NCBI RefSeq assembly: GCF_000719335.1 | Contig: NZ_JOGB01000009.1 | Location: forward strand, 62,001 to 126,000 | Length of the DNA stretch: 64,000 bases | Direction of reading: 5' to 3' | DNA from: Streptomyces sp. NRRL S-87 | GTDB lineage: Bacteria; Actinomycetota; Actinomycetes; Streptomycetales; Streptomycetaceae | Shown: in pieces, positions 44,931-57,429 of the stretch | How the letters are laid out: every line of letters begins with the position of its first letter | Numbering within the stretch: the stretch's first letter is position 1 | Notes under the pieces: model-generated | The model's database searches: none | What the model saw: only the letters and a program-made list of their open reading frames with translations | Told to the model about the DNA's origin: nothing | Made by a program: the position numbers and the translations under genes

Positions 44931-45344
44931 TCAGGCGCTGGCGGGCCGGTCCTGGGCCGGGAAGCCGCCGTACGGCACGGTGATGATCTCCATGCCGTGT
45001 CCGGAGGGGTCCCGGAAGTACAGTCCGCGACCGCCGTCGTTGCGGTTGATCTCGCCGGGGTGCCGGCCGTGCGGGTCGGCCCAGTACGTGAGGCCGAGCT
45101 CGCGGATGCGCCCGAAGGCGGCGTCGAACTCCGTCTCCGAGATCAGGAAGGCGTAGTGCTGCGGCGTCACCTCGACGCCGTCGGGGACGGTCGCGAAGTC
45201 CAGCGTGACGCCGTTGGCGGTGGCGACCGGGACGAAGGGGCCCCACTCCGCGCCGACCTCGAGTCCGAGGATCCGCGCGAGGAACGCGGCGGCGGCGTGG
45301 TTGTCGTGGGCGTGGATGATCGTGTGGTTCAGCTCGACTGACAT
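44931..45344 (-). CDS. VOC-family protein (glyoxalase/bleomycin-resistance fold)
   Basis: 137 residues, ATG at 45344. Two beta-alpha-beta-beta-beta units: LNHTIIHAHDNHAAAAFLARILG opens the first (split by a short turn) and FRDPSGHGMEIITVPYGG closes the second. Possible metal ligands are the N-terminal His, H in TPQHYAFLI and the late Glu. It is the length of a single-domain dioxygenase or lyase; the reaction is unknown. The second DJ-1 gene is upstream, same strand. Confidence 0.85.
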   Translation of the reverse strand: MSVELNHTIIHAHDNHAAAAFLARILGLEVGAEWGPFVPVATANGVTLDFATVPDGVEVTPQHYAFLISETEFDAAFGRIRELGLTYWADPHGRHPGEINRNDGGRGLYFRDPSGHGMEIITVPYGGFPAQDRPASA

Positions 45345-45481
45345 GTGTGGAGTGCTCCAGAGGGCAATCTCACGGGCACCTCCATGCCTCACCCGGTCGG
45401 TGACCGACACGCGATGCCGTAAGTCGATCATATGCACGCCACGGCCCGCCGCCGCCACCCTCTTTCCGGTCGCCGGGCCGC

Positions 45482-46048
45482 TCAGGCGAGCGGCGCCTTG
45501 CTGCGGAGCACGGTGAGGAACTCCCGCATCCAGGCCGAGTGGTCCGGCCAGGCGCGGGCCGACACGAGCGTGCCGTCGACGACCGCCTCGGAGTCCTCGT
45601 AGGCGGCGCCGGCCGTGCGCATGTCGGTCTCCAGGGCCGGGTAGGCCGTCACGCGGCGCCCGCCGAGGGCCCCGATCGCGGCGGTGATCAGGGGCCCGTG
45701 GCAGATCTGCGCCACCGGCCGGTCGGAGTCCGTGAAGGCCGCGAGGATGCGCCGCACTTCGGGGTCGTTGCGCAGGTACTCGGGCGCCCGGCCGCCGGGC
45801 AGCACGAGCGCCGCGTACTGCGCCGGGTCGACCTCGGTGAAGGCGAGGTCGGCGGGCCAGGTGTAGCCGGGCTTCTCGGTGTAGGTGTCGAAGCCCTCCT
45901 CGAAGTCGTGGACGACGAAGCGGAGCTTCTTGCGCGAGGGGGCGGCGATGTGGACCTCGTACCCCTCCTCGCGGAGCCGCTGGTAGGGGTAGAGGACTTC
46001 GAGCGACTCCGCCGCGTCGCCGGTGACGATGAGGACCTTCGCTGCCAT
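45482..46048 (-). CDS. DJ-1/PfpI family protein (type 1 glutamine-amidotransferase-like)
   Basis: 188 residues; ATG with GGAGCAG upstream. The nucleophile is C116 in AQICHGPL, the partners are E14 and H117. This is the YhbO/PfpI-like short form, different from the Hsp31-like copy at 44064. Such proteins are stress-linked deglycase/glyoxalase-like enzymes or peptidases; the true activity is debated. It is in the same block as the VOC gene. Confidence 0.9.
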   Translation of the reverse strand: MAAKVLIVTGDAAESLEVLYPYQRLREEGYEVHIAAPSRKKLRFVVHDFEEGFDTYTEKPGYTWPADLAFTEVDPAQYAALVLPGGRAPEYLRNDPEVRRILAAFTDSDRPVAQICHGPLITAAIGALGGRRVTAYPALETDMRTAGAAYEDSEAVVDGTLVSARAWPDHSAWMREFLTVLRSKAPLA

Positions 46049-46240
46049 GGGCTGCTCCCGTCGCAGTGCTGCCGGTTCCGGTGTCGGTCAGCCCAACCGT
46101 GCCCGGATCGGGGGCACTTGCCAAGACGGCCCCGCCGACCTCCACCCGGACGAGTGGGCCGGCGCGGGCCCGGGGCCCGCTCGCCGTCGCGTAGGTGCTC
46201 GAATGTCCGGGACACGACCGCACGAGTGCAGGGAGCGAGC

Positions 46241-47005
46241 ATGACCGACCGCGTACGAGGCGTCCTCGTCACCCCCGAGGGGCGCCTGCTCTTCATCCGC
46301 CGCACGCGCCCCGGCGTCGACCCGTACCTCGTCTTCGTCGGGGGCGGGGTCGAGGACACCGATCCCGGTCCGCGCGCCGCCCTGCTGCGGGAGATCCACG
46401 AGGAGATCGCCGGTCACGGCGTCCGGATCCACGGGTTGCTGCACACCGAGCCGACCCGCGAGGGCGGCCGGCACGACTTCTACGTGTGCACCGTCGCCGG
46501 CTGGGACTGGGACGCCAGGAGCGGAGCGGAGTTCGCCCGAACCGACCGCGGCACGTACGAGCTCGTCGAGGTACCGCTCGTCCCGGAAGCCCTGGACGGC
46601 GTCGAGCTCCTCCCGCCCGGCGCGGCCGGCGCCCTGCGTACGGCGATCGCGTCCGGCTCGCTTGCGGCACTGACGCGCCGGCCCTGGAGCACGATCGCCG
46701 CCCTGGCCGACCGTTTCGACGCCGCCGACGAGGCGCAGGGGATGCGGGCCGAGGAGAGCCACGTCCTCCAAGTACTCAAGATCGGCGAGGAGTTCGGCGA
46801 GGCGGCGCAGGCGGTGATCGGCGCCAAGGGGACCAACCCCCGCAAGGGGCACTCGCACACCTGGGAGGACGTGCACGCCGAGGTGGCCGACGTGGTGATC
46901 ACCGGCATGGTGGCGCTCGCCCGGATGCGGCCGGACGCCGCCGCGTACCTGGAGGCCCAACTGGAGCTCAAGGCGGCCAAGTTCCTCCCCGGCGACGCCG
47001 GCTGA
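46241..47005 (+). CDS. NUDIX hydrolase fused to MazG-like pyrophosphohydrolase
   Basis: 254 residues; ATG with GGGAGCG upstream. The N-terminal half (1-145) is NUDIX, with GGGVEDTDPGPRAALLREIH continuing into EE (R50, E51, E54, E55). The C-terminal half (about 165-250) is MazG-like, with paired acidic motifs E183-E184-E187 (KIGEEFGE) and E214-D217 (HAEVADVV). Both folds clip pyrophosphate from nucleotide-type substrates, so the protein looks like a double sanitiser of abnormal NTPs. It is a single gene, divergent from the DJ-1 gene. Confidence 0.87.
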   Translation: MTDRVRGVLVTPEGRLLFIRRTRPGVDPYLVFVGGGVEDTDPGPRAALLREIHEEIAGHGVRIHGLLHTEPTREGGRHDFYVCTVAGWDWDARSGAEFARTDRGTYELVEVPLVPEALDGVELLPPGAAGALRTAIASGSLAALTRRPWSTIAALADRFDAADEAQGMRAEESHVLQVLKIGEEFGEAAQAVIGAKGTNPRKGHSHTWEDVHAEVADVVITGMVALARMRPDAAAYLEAQLELKAAKFLPGDAG

Positions 47006-47134
47006 CGATGCCGGGCGGTCCCCGGGGGGTCAGGGGGGCGGGACCCCCGGTCAGCCGGCCGAGCGGTCCGCCGGCCAGCCGGCCGGGACCCCCGGTCAGC
47101 GGGCCGGCCTGGGCGTGCACGGGCCGGGGCGGGG

Positions 47135-47473
47135 TCAGCCCGTCAGGCGGGAGCGGCGAGGGTTGCTGACGGAGGGGCGGGGGGCGGGGAGGGCCTCGGT
47201 ACCGGTCAGGAGCTCGGGCTGGCGCATGCCGAGCCGTCGGCGGAGGTCCGCGAGCGCGGTGTGGACCGGCGCCAGCACGGCCTCGGCCTCCCGGTGCATC
47301 CCGCCGAGGGCGAGCACGATGGTCTCGACGGCCTCGACCGCGTCCTCGGCCGCCTCGTGGCTCCAGGGTCCGGCGCCCACCGCGTCGTGCAGGTGGCAGG
47401 CGGCCTCCGCGAGCTCGGCGGCCCGGTTCCCCACGCCGGGAGCGCCCTTGAGGGGCAGTGCGTCCATACCCAT
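47135..47473 (-). CDS. Hypothetical helical protein
   Basis: 112 residues. The start is uncertain: GTATGGGTATGG offers two ATGs six bases apart, with a GGGACGG nearby. An Ala/Glu/His-rich helical core (LAEAACHLHDAVGAGPW, AAEDAVEAVETIVLALGG) is followed by a Pro/Ser-rich tail. No family recognised. Codon third positions look coding. The same strand carries no close neighbour. Confidence 0.55.
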   Translation of the reverse strand: MGMDALPLKGAPGVGNRAAELAEAACHLHDAVGAGPWSHEAAEDAVEAVETIVLALGGMHREAEAVLAPVHTALADLRRRLGMRQPELLTGTEALPAPRPSVSNPRRSRLTG

Positions 47474-47662
47474 ACCGTCCCAACGACGCTCCCCCGGCCT
47501 GGGGAACGCCCCGCACCACCGCCGCTCAGGGGGCAGCGCCGCCCAATCGCACCTGCACCCCGAGGTTTCCCTGACCAGGCCCCGACCCGGGCAACCTTGG
47601 AAGTCCGGGGCGACGTCGTCCCTCCGTACGATCCGGACGCGGCCGCGGCGGCCGTAGCGTAC

Positions 47663-47710
47663 GCATCACATCCACACGGCATCACATCCACCCGGCATCA
47701 CAGCAACGCG
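47663..47710. repeat. Three 16-base direct repeats upstream of the MDR gene
   Basis: GCATCACATCCACACG, GCATCACATCCACCCG and GCATCACAGCAACGCG follow each other without gaps, ending 41 bases before the ATG. Iteron-like; they may bind a regulator of the reductase gene. Confidence 0.6.
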
Positions 47711-47751
47711 GGCGACGGCGGGCAGCCGGGCAAAGAGGGGAGCGCGGCCTC

Positions 47752-48738
47752 ATGCAGGCGATCGTGCAGGACCGCTACGGACCGGCCGAGGTGCTCGCGC
47801 TGGCGGACGTCCCGGTACCGGTGCCCGGCCCCCGCGAGGTGCTGGTCCGGGTACGGGCGGCCGGAGTGCACATCGGGGACTGGCACGTCATGACCGGGCT
47901 GCCGTCGGTGGCGCGGCTGGGGCTCGGGCTGCGAAGACCGCGGGCGCGGGTGCGCGGGCTGGAGTTCGCGGGGCGGGTCGAGGCGGCGGGGGCGCGGGTG
48001 ACCGGGTTCCGGCCCGGGGACGAGGTGTTCGGCGTCTGCGCGGGGGCCTTCGCCGAGTTCGCGTGCGCCCGCGAGGACCGGATCGCCGCCCGGCCGGCCG
48101 ATGTCGGCTGGGCTCAGGCGGCGGCGCTCCCGGTGTCCGGGCAGACCGCACTGCAGGCACTGCGACTGGGCGGGCCGCCGCGGCCCGGCCGCCGGGTGCT
48201 GGTGATCGGCGCGGGCGGGGCGGTGGGCTCGTACGCCGTCCAGCTCGCCAAGGCCGGTGGCGCAGAGGTGACCGGGGTGTGCAGCACCGGCAAGGCGGAG
48301 CTCGTCCGCACCCTGGGCGCGGACCGCGTGGTGGACTACACGCGGGAGGACTTCGCGGCCGTCGGCACCGGCCACGACCTCGTCCTGGACATGGCGGGCA
48401 GCCGGCCGCTCCCGGAACTGCGCCGTGCGCTCGCCGCGGACGGCACGCTGGTGGTGGTCGGAGGTGAGGGCGGCGGCCACGTGTTCGGCACCCTGCACCG
48501 GCAGCTGCGCGCCTCGCTGCCGTCCTTCTCCGGCGGTCGGCTGCGGCCGCTGGTGGCCGTGGACCGGGCGTCGGACCTGCGCGAACTCGCCGCCCTGGCC
48601 GCGTCGGGCACGATCCGCCCGGTCATCGACCGCGCGTACGGCCTGGCCGAGGTCCCCGAGGCGCTGCGCCGCCTGGGCGAGGGGCACAACCGCGGGAAGG
48701 CGGTGGTGACGATCGCGGGCGACGGGCCCGGGGCGTGA
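47752..48738 (+). CDS. Zinc-independent MDR oxidoreductase (quinone reductase-like)
   Basis: 328 residues. The ATG is preceded by GAGCGCGG. The medium-chain dehydrogenase fold lacks the structural zinc Cys cluster, as in quinone reductases. It begins MQAIVQDRYGPAEVLAL; the cofactor loop is VLVIGAGGAVGSYAVQLAK, and STGKAELVRTLGADRVVDY sets the NADPH site. It acts on quinones or enones; the exact substrate is unknown. Three 16-base repeats lie just upstream. Confidence 0.9.
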   Translation: MQAIVQDRYGPAEVLALADVPVPVPGPREVLVRVRAAGVHIGDWHVMTGLPSVARLGLGLRRPRARVRGLEFAGRVEAAGARVTGFRPGDEVFGVCAGAFAEFACAREDRIAARPADVGWAQAAALPVSGQTALQALRLGGPPRPGRRVLVIGAGGAVGSYAVQLAKAGGAEVTGVCSTGKAELVRTLGADRVVDYTREDFAAVGTGHDLVLDMAGSRPLPELRRALAADGTLVVVGGEGGGHVFGTLHRQLRASLPSFSGGRLRPLVAVDRASDLRELAALAASGTIRPVIDRAYGLAEVPEALRRLGEGHNRGKAVVTIAGDGPGA

Positions 48739-48832
48739 GCCGCGGCGCCGGCCGGCGTCCCCGCCACCGCGCCGGTCGAGGGGCGGGTTATTCGGTCGCC
48801 GCGGGGAAGGTCGTTACGTAGGGTGACATGCC

Positions 48833-50797
48833 ATGCGTACGCACTATCCCCGGACCCCTCACCTGCCCTGGTCCCCCGGCGCCACCTCGGACGACGTGCG
48901 GGCGGGCGCGGAGCTCGGCGGGCTGGTCGGGCGCGAGGTCGTGGTCACGGAGAAGCTCGACGGCGAGAACACCACGCTCTACGCGGACGGGCTGCACGCC
49001 CGTTCGCTGGACTCCGGGCACCATCCCTCGCGCGCCTGGGTCAAGGCCCTCCAGGGGCGCGTCGGCGCGGGGATCCCGGCCGGCTGGCGGGTGTGCGGCG
49101 AGAACATGTACGCCCGGCACTCGCTCGCCTACGACGACCTGGACAGCTGGTTCTACGGGTTCTCCGTCTGGGACGACACCGGGCACTGCCTCGACTGGGA
49201 CCGGACCGTGCGCTTCCTGCGGCGGCTCGGCGTGCCCGTACCGCGCGTGCTGTGGCGCGGCACGTTCGACGAGCGCGCGCTGCGCCGGCTGCGGATCGAC
49301 ACCGCCCGGCACGAGGGGTACGTGGTGCGCACCGTCGACGGCTTCCCGCAGGCCGAGTTCGGGCGGCGGGTGGCCAAGTGGGTGCGCGCCGGGCACGTGC
49401 GGACGGACACGCACTGGATGCACGCCGCCGTCGTGGAGAACGGGCTCGGGCCGGCCGCGCCCCTGTGGGCCGTCCGCTCCGGCGCCGCACCCGACGTCCC
49501 GGCGCTGCTGGCCGCCCTCGGCACCGGCGGACCGCGGGGCGGGGAGGTCGGCGGGCCCGCCGTGACGGGAAGGGGGGCCGGCGGACCGTCCGTGCCGGGG
49601 AGGGGAGTCGGCCCGCTGTCCGCATCGGAGCAGGAGGCCGCCGAGGCGGGGGCGCGGGAGGCGGCCGGGCGGCTCGACGTGCTCGGGCGCACCGGGGACG
49701 CCCGGCTCGTCGGCGTGCTCGCGGCGGCCCTGCACCGGCTCCCCCGCGGCGCGCTGCTGGCGCGGCTCGCCGCCGGGCCCCTCGGGCTGCCGCTCGGGCG
49801 GCGCGTGGCCGACCTCGTCGGGCTGCACCCGCTGCTGCACCTCCCCTTCCCCGACGCCGACCGGCGCTGCGGGCTGCTCCGCCTGGCGGCCGCGGCCGAC
49901 CTCGGTGTGCTGCACGCCGTGGCCGCCGCGGTCCCGGCGGGTCGTTCCGGGGAGGGCCGTGAGCAGGTGGAGTGGTCCGCGCTGTACGCGGAGGACGCGG
50001 GCCTGCTGGTCGAGGACCCGCTCGCGCCCCTGCGCACGGGGCTGCGCACCGCCCTGGCCGCGGCCGGGGTCACGGGCGCGGCCGCGGACCGGTGCTGGGC
50101 CCAGGCCCGGGAGGCGTACGCGGCGGGCCGGATCGCGACCCCCGAGGAGGCGGTGGCGGCCACGTGGCGGTGGCGGGACGGCGCCTTCCCCCGGCTGGTG
50201 CAGCTGGTCGGGCCCGCCGGCAGCGGCAAGAGCACCGTCGCGGCCGCGCTGGCCCGGGCGGTTCCCGGTGCGGTGTGCGTGTCCCTGGACGACCTGCGCA
50301 CCGCGCGCGGCGACCGGACGGACCAGTCCGAGAACGCGGCGGTGCTCCGCGCCGGCCTCGACCGGCTGGACGCGGCCCTGGCCGCCGGCGGGACGGTGGT
50401 GTGGGACGCGACCTCGCTCACCGAACGGCAGCGGCTGCCCGTGCTCGACGCGGCGCGACGCAGGGACGCGCTGGTCACGCAGGTCGTGACCGTGGTGGAC
50501 GAGGACGAACTGGTGCGACGCAACGGCAGCCGCCCGCATCCGGTACCGGCCGCGGTCCTGGACCGGCAGCTGCGCCGCTACGCCCCGCCCTACCCGGGCC
50601 GGGCGCACCGCACCTGGTACGTCGGACCGGGCGGGACGGTCGCGGACCGGGCCGGCGGCATCGACGGGGACGTCCCGGGCGCGTGGAACGCGGGGGAACG
50701 CGGTGACGTGCGGGGCGAGGGGAACGAAGAGCGCCGGCGGGCCGGCCGGGGCGCCGGGGCGACCGAGGACCCCGGTACCGAATGGGACGGGGTGTGA
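48833..50797 (+). CDS. RNA ligase fused to polynucleotide kinase
   Basis: 654 residues. Residues 1-220 are a nucleotidyltransferase-type RNA ligase: motif I EKLDGEN with the AMP-accepting lysine K41, motif III CGENMYARHSLAY, motif IV HEGYVVRT and motif V VAKWVR. A Gly/Pro-rich linker (about 235-265) and a helical region (280-450) follow. From about 455 a P-loop kinase has LVGPAGSGKST (Walker A), CVSLDDLR and VVWDATSLTERQR, as in T4-type 5' kinases. It would phosphorylate 5'-OH ends and join RNA. Seven bases separate it from the next gene, which supplies the other end-processing activities. Confidence 0.88.
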   Translation: MRTHYPRTPHLPWSPGATSDDVRAGAELGGLVGREVVVTEKLDGENTTLYADGLHARSLDSGHHPSRAWVKALQGRVGAGIPAGWRVCGENMYARHSLAYDDLDSWFYGFSVWDDTGHCLDWDRTVRFLRRLGVPVPRVLWRGTFDERALRRLRIDTARHEGYVVRTVDGFPQAEFGRRVAKWVRAGHVRTDTHWMHAAVVENGLGPAAPLWAVRSGAAPDVPALLAALGTGGPRGGEVGGPAVTGRGAGGPSVPGRGVGPLSASEQEAAEAGAREAAGRLDVLGRTGDARLVGVLAAALHRLPRGALLARLAAGPLGLPLGRRVADLVGLHPLLHLPFPDADRRCGLLRLAAAADLGVLHAVAAAVPAGRSGEGREQVEWSALYAEDAGLLVEDPLAPLRTGLRTALAAAGVTGAAADRCWAQAREAYAAGRIATPEEAVAATWRWRDGAFPRLVQLVGPAGSGKSTVAAALARAVPGAVCVSLDDLRTARGDRTDQSENAAVLRAGLDRLDAALAAGGTVVWDATSLTERQRLPVLDAARRRDALVTQVVTVVDEDELVRRNGSRPHPVPAAVLDRQLRRYAPPYPGRAHRTWYVGPGGTVADRAGGIDGDVPGAWNAGERGDVRGEGNEERRRAGRGAGATEDPGTEWDGV

Positions 50798-50804
50798 GGG
50801 ACGG

Positions 50805-53792
50805 ATGCGTACCAGCGAGGAGATCTACCACCAGGTGCGGTGGGATCCGCGCTTCGATCCGGCGCGGTTCGTGCTCGGACTGCTCCAGCGCGGGGCGCCG
50901 CCGAAGCGCGTGCCGCTGCCGTCGTTCGTACCCGGGGGCGACATCCCCTGGCACCGGGTGCTGTTCGTGGAGGCGGACGGCGAGCTGGTGTGGGACCGGG
51001 CGAGCGGGTTGGACGTGGTGGGGCGCTCGGCGGCCGGGCGGGTGCGCGAGCCGCGGCGGCTGCGGGCGCCGTTCTTCACGGCGCGCACCCCGTACGCCTG
51101 GCGGGAGGGGCGCTGGCAGCCGGTGCCGGAGGCCGGGCCGGCCGGGTCCGACCGGGGCGCGGCGGCCGCCGGGGCGGCCACGGCGGCGGGGTCCGCGGCC
51201 CGGGTGCGCCTGCTGACGTGGAACACCCTGTGGGACCGGTACGACGCCGACCGCATCGACACCGCGCGCCGCCGGCCCCGGCTGCTGGCCGCACTCGCGG
51301 CCGCGGACGCCGACGTGATCGCCCTCCAGGAGGTCGAACCGGCCCTGGTGGAGCTGCTGTCGGCGGCCCCCTGGGTGCGCGAGGGGTACGTGCTGGGCGC
51401 CGACCCGGCCGGCCGGGACGCCGCCGACAGCGGACTGCTGCTGCTCAGCCGGCTGCCCGTCCGCGAGGCGGGCGTGCACGCACTCGGCCCGCACAAGGCC
51501 GTGTCCGCCGTCGTGGTGGACACGGCGGCCGGCTACCCGCTGACGGTGGCGGCCACCCACCTGTCCAGCGACCACTCGGCGGGCGCGACGGACCGGCGGA
51601 CGGCCGAACTGGCCCGCATCGCCGAGGGGCTGGCCGGCGTGGACGGCGAGATCGCGCTGCTCGGCGACTTCAACGACGGGCGTTCCTCCCCCGAAGGGCC
51701 GGCCGCCGTACTGGGGATGCGCGACGCGTGGGAGGAGGCGTACGGTCCGGGCGACAGCACCCCGACCTTCGACCCGGCCGTCAACCCGCTGGCCGCGGTC
51801 TCCTCGCTCACCGGCCGGGCCTCGCGCCTGGACCGGATCCTGGTGCGGGGCGCGGCCGCCGTGGCGGGGGCGGCCCTGCTGGGTGACGCGCCGGGGCCGG
51901 ACGGGCTGTTCGTCTCCGACCACTACGGCGTACGGGCCGACCTCCGGTACGCCCCGGCGGGGGCGCAGGACGGGCCGGCCGGCCCGGACGGCGCGGACGT
52001 GCTGGACGCGGCCCCTTCGGTCCGGACGGCGCTGGCCTGGCTGCCGCCCGCGGAACTGCTGCCGGCGGTGGACGGTTTGAGGGAGTCGTACGACCCGCAG
52101 GTCCGGCGCTGGCCCGCGCACGTGAACCTGCTCTTCGGCTTCGCGCCGGAGCACGAGTTCGAGCGGGCCGCGGCCCTGGTCGGCGAAGTCGCGGCGCGGA
52201 CCGAGCCGTTCCCGGTGCGGGTGGCGGGGGTGTACACGTTCGGGCACCGCGAGGACGCCACGGTGTGGCTCGACCCGGCGGCCGACGGCGACGGGCCGTG
52301 GCAGCACCTGCGCGCCGCGCTCGCCGAGCGCTTCCCGGCCTGCCGGGGGCGGGCCGACGGCTTCACCCCGCACCTCACCCTCGGGCGCACCCGGGAGCCG
52401 CACCGCGTCGCGGCCGTCTGCGAGCAGCGGCTCGCCGGCGCGCCGACGGCGGCGCTGGTGGGCGAACTGGCCCTCCTGTCCCGGCGGGGCGAGGAGCCGA
52501 TGCGGGTGCGGGCCCTCGTGGAGCTCGGCACCGGGGCCGTCACGTGGCTGCCGGAGCTGCCGGAGTCCCCCGCGCCCGCGGTGCGGGCGGAGCAGTCTCG
52601 TCCGGACGCCGCCCTGGACGCGGGCCCGGACGAGGACGGGGTGGCCCGGGACGTGTCCGCGCGGGTGGCGGAGGCGCTCGGCGAGGGGGTCGTGCGGACC
52701 GTCGGTTCGCGGGCCATGGGCTGTGCCCTGCCCGGCGCGGACCTGGACCTCGTGGCCGTCCTTCCGGGAACGCCCGATCCCGCGGAGGCGGAGGCCCGGA
52801 TCGCGGCCGCGTTCCCGGAGGCGGGGGCGCTGCGCCGGGTGGTGGGCGCACGGGTGCCGGGACTGCGGTTCTCGGTCGGCACGCTGGGGGTGGACCTGGT
52901 GGTCGTGGGCGCGGGAGCGCTCGACCCGGCCGTGGCCACGCGGCGCCGGTCCGAACTGGGCGAGGCGGCGGCCGTCGCCCTGAGCGCGGTGAGCGACGCG
53001 GAGGCCGTGCGGTCCGCCGTGGCCGGCCGCGAGCCCGAGTTCACGCGCCTCGCCCGCCGCGTCAAGGCCTGGGCGGGGGCCCGCGGCCTGGACTCCGGCC
53101 CGTTCGGCGGCCTTCCCGGCCTGGCCTGGACCGTCCTGGCGGCGCACACGGTCGCGACCGCGGCCACCCCCACGACCGCGCGCACGGGAGCCGGGGACGA
53201 GGCCCTGCTGCGGGACTTCTTCGCGACGTGGGCGGCCTGGGACTGGCACGAACCGGTCGCCCTCGACGCGGGCGCGGGACCGTCCGTACCCGCCGCCGTG
53301 GGAGCGCCGGGAGGGGCGGCGCTGACCGTGCTCACCCCCTCCGCCCCGGTCCGGAGCTGTACCGCGCAGGTGTCACCGGGCTTCCGGGACCTGGTCACCC
53401 AGGAGCTCTACCGGGCCTGGGAGTTGCTGGAGGCCGACCCCCGCGGCTGGACGGACGTCACGGCACCGCCTCCGCTGCACCGCCGCCATGCCGCGTGGGC
53501 CGTGGTGACCGTACGGGCGCACGGATCCGCCGGGTTCGAGGAGTCGATGGGCCGCGTGCGGGGTCGGCTGCGCGCGCTGCTCGGGGCCCTGGAGGAGGCC
53601 GGCGCGCCGGACGCCCACGCCTGGCCGCGGCCGCTGCGCCCGGGTGCGCTGCGGGCCCGGCTCGTGATCGGGCTGGGCCGGACGCCGCCGGACGCGGAAC
53701 GGCTGGCCGGGCTGGCCCGGGCCTGGGGCCGGGACCTGGACGGGGTGGACGTGACCCGGGTCGAGGGAGGCTCCCTCCCGACCCTCGCCTGA
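50805..53792 (+). CDS. Four-domain RNA end-processing protein: MJ1316, EEP, 2H, poly(A)-polymerase-like
   Basis: 995 residues; ATG at 50805 with GAGGGA upstream. (1) Residues 1-75, MJ1316/DUF504 RNA cyclic-group end-recognition domain. (2) About 133-382, endonuclease-exonuclease-phosphatase domain with N140 (LTWNTLWD), E176 (LQEVE), D288 (GDFND) and SDH 371-373. (3) About 405-585, 2H phosphoesterase with H439 (HVNLLFG; Asn where Ser/Thr is usual) and HLTLG at 523-527. (4) About 615-995, nucleotidyltransferase of poly(A)-polymerase type with GS (634-635) and D646, D648 (PGADLDL). Together with the upstream ligase-kinase this fits a repair path opening 2',3'-cyclic ends, removing or adding nucleotides and sealing. 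Confidence 0.87.
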   Translation: MRTSEEIYHQVRWDPRFDPARFVLGLLQRGAPPKRVPLPSFVPGGDIPWHRVLFVEADGELVWDRASGLDVVGRSAAGRVREPRRLRAPFFTARTPYAWREGRWQPVPEAGPAGSDRGAAAAGAATAAGSAARVRLLTWNTLWDRYDADRIDTARRRPRLLAALAAADADVIALQEVEPALVELLSAAPWVREGYVLGADPAGRDAADSGLLLLSRLPVREAGVHALGPHKAVSAVVVDTAAGYPLTVAATHLSSDHSAGATDRRTAELARIAEGLAGVDGEIALLGDFNDGRSSPEGPAAVLGMRDAWEEAYGPGDSTPTFDPAVNPLAAVSSLTGRASRLDRILVRGAAAVAGAALLGDAPGPDGLFVSDHYGVRADLRYAPAGAQDGPAGPDGADVLDAAPSVRTALAWLPPAELLPAVDGLRESYDPQVRRWPAHVNLLFGFAPEHEFERAAALVGEVAARTEPFPVRVAGVYTFGHREDATVWLDPAADGDGPWQHLRAALAERFPACRGRADGFTPHLTLGRTREPHRVAAVCEQRLAGAPTAALVGELALLSRRGEEPMRVRALVELGTGAVTWLPELPESPAPAVRAEQSRPDAALDAGPDEDGVARDVSARVAEALGEGVVRTVGSRAMGCALPGADLDLVAVLPGTPDPAEAEARIAAAFPEAGALRRVVGARVPGLRFSVGTLGVDLVVVGAGALDPAVATRRRSELGEAAAVALSAVSDAEAVRSAVAGREPEFTRLARRVKAWAGARGLDSGPFGGLPGLAWTVLAAHTVATAATPTTARTGAGDEALLRDFFATWAAWDWHEPVALDAGAGPSVPAAVGAPGGAALTVLTPSAPVRSCTAQVSPGFRDLVTQELYRAWELLEADPRGWTDVTAPPPLHRRHAAWAVVTVRAHGSAGFEESMGRVRGRLRALLGALEEAGAPDAHAWPRPLRPGALRARLVIGLGRTPPDAERLAGLARAWGRDLDGVDVTRVEGGSLPTLA

Positions 53793-53832
53793 CCCGCGCC
53801 CCGGAGGCGCCGCCCGGCCCCGTCGGGAGTCT

Positions 53833-54780
53833 TCAGGCCCGGCGTTCGGATCGGCCCCCGGGCGCCGGGTCGCCGGGCGCGCCGTCCGCCGGCCGCCCCG
53901 CGCCCCCGGAGCCGCCGCGCAGGGCCCCGAGGTATACCCCGAGCAGGATCAGCGGCGTGCCCAACAGCAGGGAGGCGCTGAGGGGTTCGGCGTCGAGCCG
54001 GGCGGAGAGCAGGATCGTGACGGGTGGGATGACCACGAACACGTACGCGGCCCGCGAGGCACCCCAGTGATCGATGACCACGAGGTAGAGCACGAACGTC
54101 AGGACCGACCCGGCGAGGACCATGTAGGCGACGGCCCACCACGTCGCGGCCCGCTCCGGCAGCTCCCACCGGTCCCCGGCGGCCCGCGAACCGGCGAACA
54201 GCAGCAGCGTGGCGGCCGACATCCCGACGGCGTTCATGGCCACGGGGTGCACGTGCGGGAACCGGCGGACGAGGACCGCCGCCTGGGCGAAGCACAGGAC
54301 CGCGCCGAAGACCGCCAGCAGCGACGCAACCGGTACGTCCGCCTGGAGCGGCGCCCGCGAGACCAGCGCGACGCCCGTGGCGGCGAGGAGCGTGCCGAAC
54401 ACGGCGGACGCGCGGAAGCGTTCCTGCCGCTGGGCCGCCGCCAGCAGCAGCGTGACCAGGGGTACCAGCGCCAGGACGGTCTGGCCGAGTCCGGCGTGGA
54501 TGTGGACCAGGGCGTAGTAGGCGAGCGCGGAGGTGACGCCGAAGTTCAGGGTGCCGAAGAGCGCGGCCCCCGCCAGGGCCCGGCCGCGCGGGAACCCCAC
54601 GCGCAACACGGCCATGAGCAGGAGCAGGACCAGCGAGGCGCCGCCGAAGCGCAGGGCGGCACCCCACAGGGGGTCGAGCTCACGGTTGCTGAACCGCACG
54701 CCCACCGCGTTCCCGCCACCGAGCAGGGCGCACCCGAGGAACGAGCCCAGCGCCACCCGATCCACGCCACCACGCAGCAC
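53833..54780 (-). CDS. EamA/DMT-family membrane transporter
   Basis: 315 residues with ten hydrophobic helices in two EamA repeats. The repeats are seen in VALGSFLGCALLGGGNAVGV and later AVAYMVLAGSVLTFVLYLVV. The start is uncertain: GTG at 54780 is used, but GTG 54765 is possible, and ribosome sites are weak. Such transporters export metabolites or amino-acid-like compounds. The C-terminal 30 residues are Gly/Pro/Arg-rich. It converges on the RNA-repair operon. Confidence 0.87.
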   Translation of the reverse strand: MLRGGVDRVALGSFLGCALLGGGNAVGVRFSNRELDPLWGAALRFGGASLVLLLLMAVLRVGFPRGRALAGAALFGTLNFGVTSALAYYALVHIHAGLGQTVLALVPLVTLLLAAAQRQERFRASAVFGTLLAATGVALVSRAPLQADVPVASLLAVFGAVLCFAQAAVLVRRFPHVHPVAMNAVGMSAATLLLFAGSRAAGDRWELPERAATWWAVAYMVLAGSVLTFVLYLVVIDHWGASRAAYVFVVIPPVTILLSARLDAEPLSASLLLGTPLILLGVYLGALRGGSGGAGRPADGAPGDPAPGGRSERRA

Positions 54781-54991
54781 CGGCCCACCGTAAGCCGCGT
54801 GCCGCGCCGGCACGGCCGCGACACACGCCGGTGAGGACACGCGCCGTACGGGTGCGGAGCGGGCCGCGGGGCCGGGGGGACCGCCGCCGGGACGCAGCGG
54901 CGCCCGGCAGGGGCGGAGCGCACCCGCCGGGCAAAAGAAAAGCGGCAAGGGGGAAACCCACTCCTTGCCACTCTCAACGTATAGCGCACGG

Positions 54992-55012
54992 GGGGCCTTG
55001 CGGCAAGGCCCC
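54992..55012. promoter_or_regulatory. Rifamycin-associated element (RAE)
   Basis: The core GGGCCTTGCGGCAAGGCCC (54993-55011), flanked by one more G and C, is a near-perfect inverted repeat matching the 19-base RAE (GGGGCTTGCGGCAAGGCCC as I recall it), differing by one inserted C. In actinobacteria the RAE precedes rifamycin-inactivating genes and helR. It lies about 100 bases before the helR start. Confidence 0.85.
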
Positions 55013-55048
55013 GGTCCTGGCGCACAATCACTGGCCTCTGCCAGGACC
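55013..55048. promoter_or_regulatory. Hairpin in the helR leader
   Basis: GGTCCTGG (55013-55020) pairs with CCAGGACC (55041-55048). It directly follows the RAE and may shape the 5' leader of the message. Confidence 0.5.
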
Positions 55049-55113
55049 TGCGGAAATCGGAGATTCACGGAGTGCATGCGCATGTGTCGGTTCGTGCGGA
55101 CGGAGCCGATGAG

Positions 55114-57429
55114 ATGACCTGCCCGACCACCATGAGCGCGTTCGACCTTCCCGACCGCCTCTCCCCCAAGGCCGATCCGACGCTGATCGCCGACGACGAG
55201 CGGCACTTCACCGCCGTCGCCGAGAGCCTGGGGCGGACGATCACCGAGCTGTCCGACCAGTTGGCCGCCGTGCTCAGGGCGCCCGGCGGCGCCGGCCGCG
55301 CGGCCATGGAACGCGACGCGGAGGTCCACCGGCTGACCGGGCGGCTGCGCGCGCTGCGCCGCTTCGGCCTGGACCTGTGCCTGGGGCGCATCGTCCCCGC
55401 GGACGGCACCGGGCCCCTCTACGTCGGCCGGCTCGGCCTCACCGACAGCACCGGGCGCCGGCTGCTGGTCGACTGGCGCTCCCCTGCGGCGGAACCCTTC
55501 TTCGCCGCGACCCACGCCCACCCGATGGGCCTGACCAGCCGTCGCAGGTACCGCTGGACCGACGGCCGGGTGAGCGACTACTGGGACGAGGTGTTCACCC
55601 CCGACGGGCTGGAGGGGCACGCCGCGCTCGACGACCAGTCGGCGTTCATCGCCAGTCTGGGCAGCAGCCGCTCGCCCCGGATGCGGGACGTGCTGGCGAC
55701 GATCCAGGCGGACCAGGACGCGATCATCCGGGCGGGGTCCCGGGGAGCGCTCGTCGTCGACGGCGGTCCGGGTACCGGCAAGACGGTCGTCGCGCTGCAC
55801 CGATCCGCCTACCTCGTCCACTCCGACCCGCGCCTCGCCCACCGTCGCGGCGGCGTGCTGTTCGTCGGGCCGCACCAGCCGTACCTGGACTACGTAGCCG
55901 ACGTCCTGCCCCGGCTGGGCGAGGAGGGCGTCCAGACGTGCACCCTGCGGGACCTGGTCGCCGAGGGCGCCGGCGCGGGCCCCGACACCGACCCGGAGGC
56001 GGCCCGGCTGAAGTCGTCGGCGGCCATGGTGGGGGCGGTCGAGACGGCCGTCCGCTTCTACGAGGAGCCGCCCACCGAGGCGCTGGTGCTCTCGACCCCG
56101 TGGGCGGACGTGCGGCTGACCGCCGACGACTGGGCCGAGGCGTTCCGGGTACCCGGCCCGGGCGCACCGCACAACGAGGCGCGCGACCGGATCCTGGAGG
56201 AGCTGGTCTCGATCCTGGTCGACAAGGCGACGGGCACCGACGACGGCCTCGGCTACCGCGGTGGTGAGGACGAGCCCGACGCGTACGACGTCTACGACCA
56301 CCGGGACCGCGACGACCACGACCACCGGGGCGGGGACGGGGACGGCGACGACGACGTCCCGGCCGGCCCGCTGCGCGCGTGGCTGCTGAAGGACCGGGAG
56401 CTGGCCGGGGCCCTCGACCGTGCCTGGCCCCTGCTCGACGCGGCCGACCTGGTCGGGGACCTGTGGTCGGTGCCCGCGTACCTGCGGATGTGCGCTCCCT
56501 GGCTCACCCGCGAGGAGGTGCGCACGCTCCAGCGCGAGGACCCGCGGGCCTGGACGGTGCCGGACCTGCCGCTGCTGGACGCGGCACGGCAGCGGCTCGG
56601 CGACCCGGCGGCGTCGCTGCGCCGGCGCCGCCGGGAGTCCGCCGCCGCGGCCGAACGCGAGCGCCTGGCCGGTGTGATCGAGGACGTGCTCGCGGCGGAC
56701 CAGGACGGGGAGGGGGCGGTGACCATGCTGCGCGGACGCGACCTGCGGGACAGCCTCGTCGACGGGACGGCGCTGCCCGACGCGGCCGGCCGGGACCTGC
56801 TGGCCGGGCCGTTCGCGCACGTCGTCGTGGACGAGGCGCAGGAGCTGACCGACGCGGAGTGGCAGATGCTCCTGCTGCGCTGCCCGTCGCGCAGCTTCAC
56901 CGTCGTCGGCGACCGCGCGCAGGCCCGGCACGGGTTCACCGAGTCCTGGCGGGAGCGGCTGGAGCGCATCGGGCTCGACCGGATCGAGGTGGCCTCGCTG
57001 AGCGTCAACTACCGCACGCCGGAGGAGGTGATGGCGGAGGCCGAGCCGGTCATCCGGGCGGTGCTGCCGGACGCCAACGTGCCGGCCTCCGTCCGCAGCT
57101 CCGGGGTGCCCGTCGGCCGCGGGACGGTGGCTGACCTGGACGCGGTGCTGGAGGCCTGGCTCGCCGAGCACGCCGAGGGGACGGCCTGTGTCATCGGCGG
57201 GCCGCCGGCCGGGTTCCGGGAGACCTCCCGGGTCCGCGCGCTGACGCCCCGGCTGTCGAAGGGGCTCGAGTTCGACCTGGTCGTCCTCATCGACCCGGAC
57301 CGCTTCGGGAGCGGGACCGAGGGGGCGGTGGACCGGTACGTGGCGATGACGCGGGCGACGCGCCGGCTGGTCGTCCTCACCACCCCTGAGCCCGGCGGGC
57401 ACCCCCTGAGCCCGGCGGGCACCCCCTGA
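55114..57429 (+). CDS. helR: RNA polymerase recycling motor ATPase HelR
   Basis: 771 residues from an ATG at 55114 with GGAG eight bases upstream. It is a UvrD-like two-domain motor protein: Walker A GGPGTGKT near 217, Walker B VVVDEAQEL, SVNYRTPEEV and the last motif SKGLEFDLVVLID. The N-terminal coiled region (KADPTLIADDERHFTAVAES) fits the secondary-channel arm of HelD/HelR. An Asp/His/Gly-rich insertion (about 388-412) may be the acidic primary-channel loop. HelR frees RNA polymerase from stalled complexes and expels rifamycin. An upstream RAE supports that it is the rifamycin-inducible HelR and not housekeeping HelD. The 3' end lies in a 20-base tandem repeat. Confidence 0.9.
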   Translation: MTCPTTMSAFDLPDRLSPKADPTLIADDERHFTAVAESLGRTITELSDQLAAVLRAPGGAGRAAMERDAEVHRLTGRLRALRRFGLDLCLGRIVPADGTGPLYVGRLGLTDSTGRRLLVDWRSPAAEPFFAATHAHPMGLTSRRRYRWTDGRVSDYWDEVFTPDGLEGHAALDDQSAFIASLGSSRSPRMRDVLATIQADQDAIIRAGSRGALVVDGGPGTGKTVVALHRSAYLVHSDPRLAHRRGGVLFVGPHQPYLDYVADVLPRLGEEGVQTCTLRDLVAEGAGAGPDTDPEAARLKSSAAMVGAVETAVRFYEEPPTEALVLSTPWADVRLTADDWAEAFRVPGPGAPHNEARDRILEELVSILVDKATGTDDGLGYRGGEDEPDAYDVYDHRDRDDHDHRGGDGDGDDDVPAGPLRAWLLKDRELAGALDRAWPLLDAADLVGDLWSVPAYLRMCAPWLTREEVRTLQREDPRAWTVPDLPLLDAARQRLGDPAASLRRRRRESAAAAERERLAGVIEDVLAADQDGEGAVTMLRGRDLRDSLVDGTALPDAAGRDLLAGPFAHVVVDEAQELTDAEWQMLLLRCPSRSFTVVGDRAQARHGFTESWRERLERIGLDRIEVASLSVNYRTPEEVMAEAEPVIRAVLPDANVPASVRSSGVPVGRGTVADLDAVLEAWLAEHAEGTACVIGGPPAGFRETSRVRALTPRLSKGLEFDLVVLIDPDRFGSGTEGAVDRYVAMTRATRRLVVLTTPEPGGHPLSPAGTP

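Follow-up and report, generated by a model that had tools for sequence, protein, structure and literature searches.

Layout of the locus

The window analysed here, a stretch of 64,000 nucleotides from contig NZ_JOGB01000009.1 of Streptomyces sp. NRRL S-87, carries two adjacent forward-strand genes whose products most likely heal and seal broken RNA ends, the best reading of their domains, conserved active sites and co-occurrence. Gene 1 encodes an RNA ligase fused through a degenerate HD domain to a 5′-OH polynucleotide kinase. Gene 2 encodes an MJ1316 domain, an EEP phosphoesterase, a 2H phosphoesterase and a canonical poly(A) polymerase (PAP) module. Bacterial RNA repair systems are known, and the pair is a variant of them; the kind can already be recognised from genome data. 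Both reading frames and the seven-base spacing between them are as given in the original prediction, an earlier reading of the same DNA. The host genome contains one MJ1316 gene. The features are as follows.

48833..50797 (+): gene 1, RNA ligase, degenerate HD and 5′-OH polynucleotide kinase fusion, 654 aa
48932..49384 (+): ATP-type RNA ligase (nucleotidyltransferase) domain, gene 1 residues 34–184; Pfam RNA_ligase (PF09414), 4.7e-34; K41 invariant
48953–48955 (+): codon of the ligase lysine K41
49622..50161 (+): helical domain, a degenerate HD phosphohydrolase, gene 1 residues ~264–443; from hhalign, BLASTP, the lost HD dipeptide and model helices
50195..50590 (+): P-loop 5′-OH polynucleotide kinase domain, gene 1 residues 455–586; Pfam AAA_33, 6.4e-24
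50798..50804 (+): intergenic gap, 7 bases from the gene 1 stop to the gene 2 start
50805..53792 (+): gene 2, MJ1316, EEP, 2H and canonical PAP module, 995 aa; start codon ATG at 50805
50805..50999 (+): MJ1316 domain, gene 2 residues 1–65; Pfam MJ1316 (PF04457), 2.9e-17
51213..51923 (+): EEP phosphoesterase domain, gene 2 residues 137–373; Pfam Exo_endo_phos, 6.7e-21
52044..52493 (+): 2H phosphoesterase domain, gene 2 residues 414–563, with HVN at 439–441 and HLT at 523–525; Pfam 2_5_RNA_ligase2 (PF13563), 2.1e-33
52596..53789 (+): canonical PAP module, gene 2 residues 598–995; catalytic D646, D648 and D697
53091..53099 (+): altered nucleotide-pocket positions, gene 2 residues 763–765 (D-S-G), opposite yeast PAP Y224-A225-N226

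For each protein, 7995 candidates were scored, homologues were counted at E ≤ 1e-3 and 120 were listed; residue counts below refer to these listed relatives.

Gene 1 joins a ligase and a kinase through a degenerate HD domain

Gene 1 had been read as an RNA ligase joined to a P-loop kinase. Both domains are found by Pfam above the curated cut-offs, but the degenerate HD domain between them had been overlooked. Six ligase residues (K41, D43, G44, E90, E161 and K182) are invariant in the alignment columns of all 120 relatives; we take them to be the KxDG lysine and ligase motifs III, IV and V, in agreement with the earlier reading of K41 and motifs III–V. The kinase contains both the P-loop and the arginine needed for the kinase activity of T4 Pnk and Pnkp. 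A structure model of the protein (predicted local distance difference test (pLDDT) 80.5, predicted template modelling (pTM) score 0.85) places helices across residues 264–443. Kinase matches filled the list of the fold search, and the HD and ligase parts were assessed by sequence alone.

In an hhalign comparison, 160 columns of the middle region align with the HD portion of nine HD-kinases, at probability 96.4 and E 1.2e-9. BLASTP matches the Deinococcus radiodurans HD-kinase to residues 325–595, on through the kinase, at 36% identity (1e-24). Judged by sequence, gene 1 has an HD-fold domain immediately N-terminal of its kinase, as in HD-Pnk, and HD followed by kinase is the order we take to be that of the Runella slithyformis type. 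Gene 1 differs from HD-Pnk in that the HD catalytic residues are lost and a ligase is fused in front.

The extent of this loss can be read from the aligned columns. All nine HD-kinases retain H43, H51, H81, D82, H107, H139 and D173 (D. radiodurans numbering). Among the gene 1 relatives, D82 falls in a gap in 119 and is serine in 1, the H107 column (the QH.xRG histidine) is a gap in all 120, and the column of the last aspartate, D173, holds V, A, T, L or S and never D. Histidine remains in the H81 column in 98 of the 120 and in the H139 column in 39. The pattern HD[ILVY][GAS]K occurs in none of the 120 relatives and in 9/9 control HD-kinases; the pattern AD..G was uninformative, matching 119 of the relatives elsewhere in the chain. 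Pfam HD is not among the 25 families listed, out of 26, over 43 gene 1 members. Given the homology to HD-kinases and the loss of metal residues in the gene 1 relatives, we infer that the region is an HD domain whose metal site is not functional, and the remnant probably has a structural role.

In Deinococcus, ligase and kinase are encoded by separate genes, and an HD domain forms the N-terminal part of the kinase protein; in two such proteins its Pfam matches are at 3.9e-13 and 1e-8. The D. radiodurans operon DRB0100-DRB0099-DRB0098 encodes a ligase, PARG and an HD-kinase, and its gene order is shared with the domain order of gene 1. DRB0100 is 58.5% identical to the gene 1 ligase over residues 1–205, and DRB0098 is homologous to the remainder of gene 1. 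The operon differs in its separate genes, its intact HD and the PARG between ligase and HD-kinase. The locus tags DR_RS15960, 15955 and 15950 fit the published descriptions of DRB0100, DRB0099 and DRB0098, including the primer and residue numbers of PMC1997131. DRB0098 is described there as a 5′-OH kinase that requires R371, and DRB0099 is a PARG, bacterial members of which act on ADP-ribosylated RNA ends (PMC11833690).

An annotated RNA ligase gene also lies upstream of the HD-kinase in Bosea, P. aeruginosa and Variovorax plasmids, with one small gene between in Variovorax. The HD-kinases of Miltoncostaea and Vibrio are without an annotated ligase alongside. No relative of gene 2 (MJ1316-EEP-2H-PAP) was found in the Deinococcus plasmid records.

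The bacterial Pnkp1-Rnl-Hen1 complex likewise combines end healing and ligation through partner proteins (PMC4411300). It differs from the present pair, in whose two proteins Pfam finds no methyltransferase or metallophosphoesterase, and the NCBIfam bacter_Pnkp score of 35.3 bits lies below the Pnkp equivalog cut-off of 750.

Two observations on related ligases stand apart from these comparisons. Matches to gene 1 occur in 32 phage records, in no case with 80% coverage; large phages (e.g. Xanthomonas phage XacN1, L060) carry the ligase domain, and the 20 records listed of the 32 match only residues ~1–215, at 41–52% identity. The host genome also holds a second strong RNA_ligase match on contig C15 (L106:3026-4093, minus strand), which is 40% identical to D. 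radiodurans DR_RS15930, a protein we take to be DRB0094 (DraRnl). The same two RNA ligase types are thus present in both genomes.

Gene 2 combines end-processing domains with a canonical poly(A) polymerase fold

The four domains proposed for gene 2 (MJ1316, EEP, 2H and a nucleotidyltransferase) were all recovered; an RRM-like last part had been missed. The first three domains and PAP_central (4.6e-7) exceed the curated Pfam cut-offs. The catalytic NTP_transf_2 part falls under its cut-off (E 0.02). The MJ1316 domain scores 63.6 bits against a cut-off of 26.3, and pLDDT is low there in the gene 2 model; PMC6514570 credits the MJ1316 prediction to Burroughs and Aravind 2016. The closest relative of gene 2, from Streptomyces sp. 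NPDC093225, is 91% identical.

The catalytic residues of the ligase, kinase, EEP and transferase, described in the original prediction as readable, are conserved as read. In EEP, the catalytic N, E, H, D, N, D and H are each present in all 120 actinobacterial relatives, save the last H (119/120). A profile search of solved structures placed TDP2 chains nearest to this domain (1.7e-12), followed by lower-scoring EEP-type chains, among them a bacterial one of sphingomyelinase type (1.6e-6) and the CCR4-family CNOT6L (5e-4).

The first 2H motif is HVN rather than HxT/S, as had been pointed out. The domain therefore departs from the usual two HxT/S motifs; both histidines are present and the Pfam 2H family matches. 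Of the 120 actinobacterial relatives, 116 read HxN and 4 HxS at the first motif, and 118 read HxT/S at the second. In the cyanobacterial set the first motif is HxN in 68, HxT in 46 and a gap in 6, so that N makes up 68 of the 114 ungapped rows. Because N prevails in both groups, HVN is an ordinary trait of the family.

The RRM-like C-terminal part completes the canonical three-part PAP fold, and the catalytic aspartate triad is present and conserved. The transferase is thus a whole canonical PAP fold like that of yeast and human, and nothing points to the CCA addition raised in the original prediction; no CCA-adding enzyme is among the fold and sequence matches listed, which does not in itself exclude CCA activity. 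Its nucleotide pocket is altered in actinobacteria. The column of yeast Y224 is D in 120/120 rows and that of N226 is A in 119 rows and G in the other; we take the two yeast residues to be ATP-contacting. Compared with eukaryotic canonical PAP, the gene 2 module is fused to end-processing domains and, in actinobacteria, has both of these equivalents replaced.

Cyanobacterial proteins annotated as poly(A) polymerase share the full MJ1316-EEP-2H-PAP architecture, and a Calothrix protein aligns with 82% of gene 2 at 29.1% identity. They differ at the pocket, where Tyr or His, plus Asn, are mostly kept. A cyanobacterial query gave 197 homologues, of which 114 of the 120 listed have all four Pfam parts; the named organisms among the 120 are all cyanobacteria apart from one Acidobacteria bin.

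The pair is widespread and linked

The gene pair is widely distributed among actinomycetes; cyanobacteria also contain gene 2. The two proteins have 1257 and 1277 homologues, and the 120 listed for each share the same main Pfam domains; source annotations include poly(A) polymerase, RNA repair domain-containing protein and RNA ligase family protein. Gene 2 was located in 51 genomic loci; 41 of these contain matches to every one of the pair's eight domain regions, next to one another. These homologue numbers and matching loci show that the pair is not a chance arrangement. In the other loci, gene 1 runs off the retrieved sequence (L006, L010, L038), its match is limited to the ligase (L031), 2H is missing (L035), the operon appears decayed or incomplete (L037, L040, L047), or a short MJ1316-2H gene stands without gene 1 (L048, L050). 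L037 and L047 are from Nonomuraea and hold shrunken operon remnants, suggesting decay in some lineages.

MJ1316 was detected in 3 of 396 sampled Actinomycetota genomes, all Streptomyces and including the host, and in 41 of 150 sampled Streptomyces genomes, again with the host. Mapping the pair across Streptomyces, a check the original prediction had called for, places gene 1 beside gene 2 in 30 of these 41. One of the 30 (G518) additionally has the short MJ1316-2H form, and in another (G407) only the kinase part of gene 1 adjoins gene 2. The gene 1 of G407 lies in two distant parts on opposite strands, at C1:8841836-8842948 (−) and C1:6010958-6011710 (+), as would result from a large inversion through the gene, or from misassembly. 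Nine of the 41 have the short MJ1316-2H gene only. Whole-genome searches did not find gene 1 in these nine, in the remaining two genomes (G477 and G451), or in the 20 searched of the 109 MJ1316-negative Streptomyces genomes; several of the searched genomes gave weak kinase-only matches, the best at 1.7e-8.

The linked copies of gene 2 separate the two phosphoesterases. EEP is present in 29/29 readable copies (the copy of G476 is cut off) and 2H in 24, being missing in G484, G462, G534, G504 and G467. Pfam confirms the missing 2H in the G467 copy (L117) and in L035. A gene 1 tree was built from 67 proteins, L112 not among them. Parsimony assigns its five rows without 2H to three branches, two of them forced by well-supported branches, which indicates that 2H was lost on at least two branches. 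The original prediction had 2H open the cyclic ends; its absence from 5 of 29 copies, set against 0 of 29 for EEP, speaks against its being needed for this.

A putative heal-and-seal pathway and its alternatives

We favour, with moderate confidence, a two-protein system for RNA break repair by healing and sealing, in which gene 1 derives from a ligase and HD-kinase pair and EEP replaces the HD phosphatase. Gene 2 would act at 3′ ends, and gene 1 would act at 5′ ends and carry out the sealing. MJ1316 would recognise the RNA end, and EEP, aided by 2H where present, would convert a 2′,3′-cyclic or phosphorylated end to 3′-OH. The PAP module could then add lost nucleotides, the kinase would phosphorylate the 5′-OH, and the ligase, adenylylated at K41, would join the ends. 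Kinases, phosphoesterases, 2H enzymes, ligases and nucleotidyltransferases make up the logic of RNA repair described in PMC7824862 and PMC9503650. ANGEL2, a CCR4-family enzyme discussed below, sets a precedent for the 3′ clean-up (PMC9525292). As an RNA repair operon the original prediction holds up as the best account of domains, active sites and co-occurrence; the CCA addition that it suggested and a required 2H step find no support, and the HD remnant had escaped it.

Gene 1 may have descended from a Deinococcus-like ligase and HD-kinase pair that was fused in actinomycetes and lost its HD metal site. EEP would have taken over the phosphatase step, as suggested by the apparently dead HD in gene 1, the EEP in every readable linked copy and the dispensable 2H. 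Deinobacterium chartae, one of 14 control genomes, in which RNA_ligase was detected and MJ1316 was not, fits this hand-over.

Several points weigh against the heal-and-seal reading. Support for RNA repair is comparative and the activities are predicted. In PMC1997131, DRB0100 forms an AMP adduct at K40 and ligated neither DNA nor RNA, the three Deinococcus operon proteins mixed did not ligate DNA, and HD-motif mutants of DRB0098 retained a phosphatase activity that the authors left unassigned. With these mutants still active, the HD role in DRB0098 is not proven. Among solved structures, EEP is nearest to TDP2; ANGEL2 is not among the matches listed, which does not exclude a likeness to it. 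Gene 2 also occurs apart from gene 1: the long form in G477 and a 402-aa MJ1316-EEP gene in G451 stand without gene 1, and a Calothrix plasmid has gene 2 and no gene 1 match, in a search without its own positive control.

More tentatively, and clearly less probably than the two-protein scheme itself, actinomycetes may have swapped an HD end-phosphatase for a protein with a eukaryote-type PAP fold and a remodelled pocket; rather than tailing with poly(A), this polymerase would fill gaps in 3′ repair and rebuild RNA ahead of sealing. If the reading of the pair as a whole is right, it would show one RNA repair lineage exchanging its end-cleaning enzyme and would give reason to re-examine the radiation-induced, so far inactive DRB0100 on broken RNA together with its partners. 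It would also provide a bacterial setting for the canonical PAP fold and pose the question of which nucleotide is added and why.

The main rival is tailing for decay, in which gene 2 would clean the 3′ end and add a tail that feeds the RNA to 3′ exonucleases, with the ligase protein a separate, optional branch. We regard this as unlikely. It is kept in consideration by G477 and the Calothrix plasmid, in which gene 2 was found and gene 1 was not, and the four-part gene 2 is common in cyanobacteria. Phosphoesterase followed by PAP is also a known order: ANGEL2, of the CCR4 family, strips 3′ phosphates ahead of polyadenylation, and cyclic phosphates in vitro (PMC9525292). Against tailing stand the actinobacterial pocket, which is without the two PAP residues, and the linkage of the genes, since gene 1 is adjacent in 29 of the 31 Streptomyces genomes with a readable EEP-bearing gene 2.

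Somewhat less probable again is that EEP, given its closeness to TDP2, removes adducts at 5′ ends, leaving the 3′ end to 2H and host enzymes. The five readable linked copies that are missing 2H would then have no 3′ phosphatase candidate in the operon, and TDP2 likeness inside the EEP superfamily says little about substrate.

DNA repair, as proposed for the Deinococcus operon, is very improbable. DRB0098-DRB0100 is strongly radiation-induced and classed as DNA repair (PMC1274311, PMC1978522), with double-strand break repair predicted (PMC1274311). However, MJ1316, 2H and PAP are RNA families, the DRB0100 knockout is reported as fully radiation-resistant (PMC1978522), and DRB0100 failed to ligate DNA as noted above. 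Equally improbable is tRNA repair with the CCA end rebuilt, for which a template-independent transferase and the frequent cleavage of tRNA in bacterial conflicts (PMC7824862) can be cited, and against which the best matches of the transferase are canonical PAPs.

By title, a literature search returned no experimental study of the gene pair; an earlier description in Burroughs and Aravind 2016 (doi 10.1093/nar/gkw722) is possible.

Genomic context

Two other origins were considered and set aside. A phage origin of the pair found no support: no gene 2 relative was found in phage records, nor in viral contigs, the latter covered by one alignment scan and two patterns. A search against the PADLOC models of defence systems returned no match for gene 2, and for gene 1 nothing beyond weak hits to the P-loop (best E 0.02), none of them convincing.

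An Rfam scan of 45000-56000 gave no match, and so no non-coding RNA partner, and the window is without tRNA. A promoter scan found none, which is little informative for Streptomyces. Downstream, at window 55072-57429, lies a UvrD-like helicase gene, presumably HelD-like, for which no link to the operon was found.

Neighbouring open reading frames (at least 100 aa) were clustered over 94 loci, the window included, after antisense and overlapping frames of the pair had been set aside; the flanks were of unequal length and some loci short. In this comparison no third partner emerged, with no other neighbour present in more than 15 loci. Patterns of ribosomal protein or elongation factor genes lie near the operon or the short form in 22 of 93 loci. 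In eight of these (L017, L024, L030, L031, L099, L102, L117 and L123) the operon or short form lies between S10 and EF-Tu patterns, and in L099 and L102 it is the short MJ1316-2H gene that is found where other loci have the full operon. This shared slot hints that one form arose from the other by deletion or replacement.
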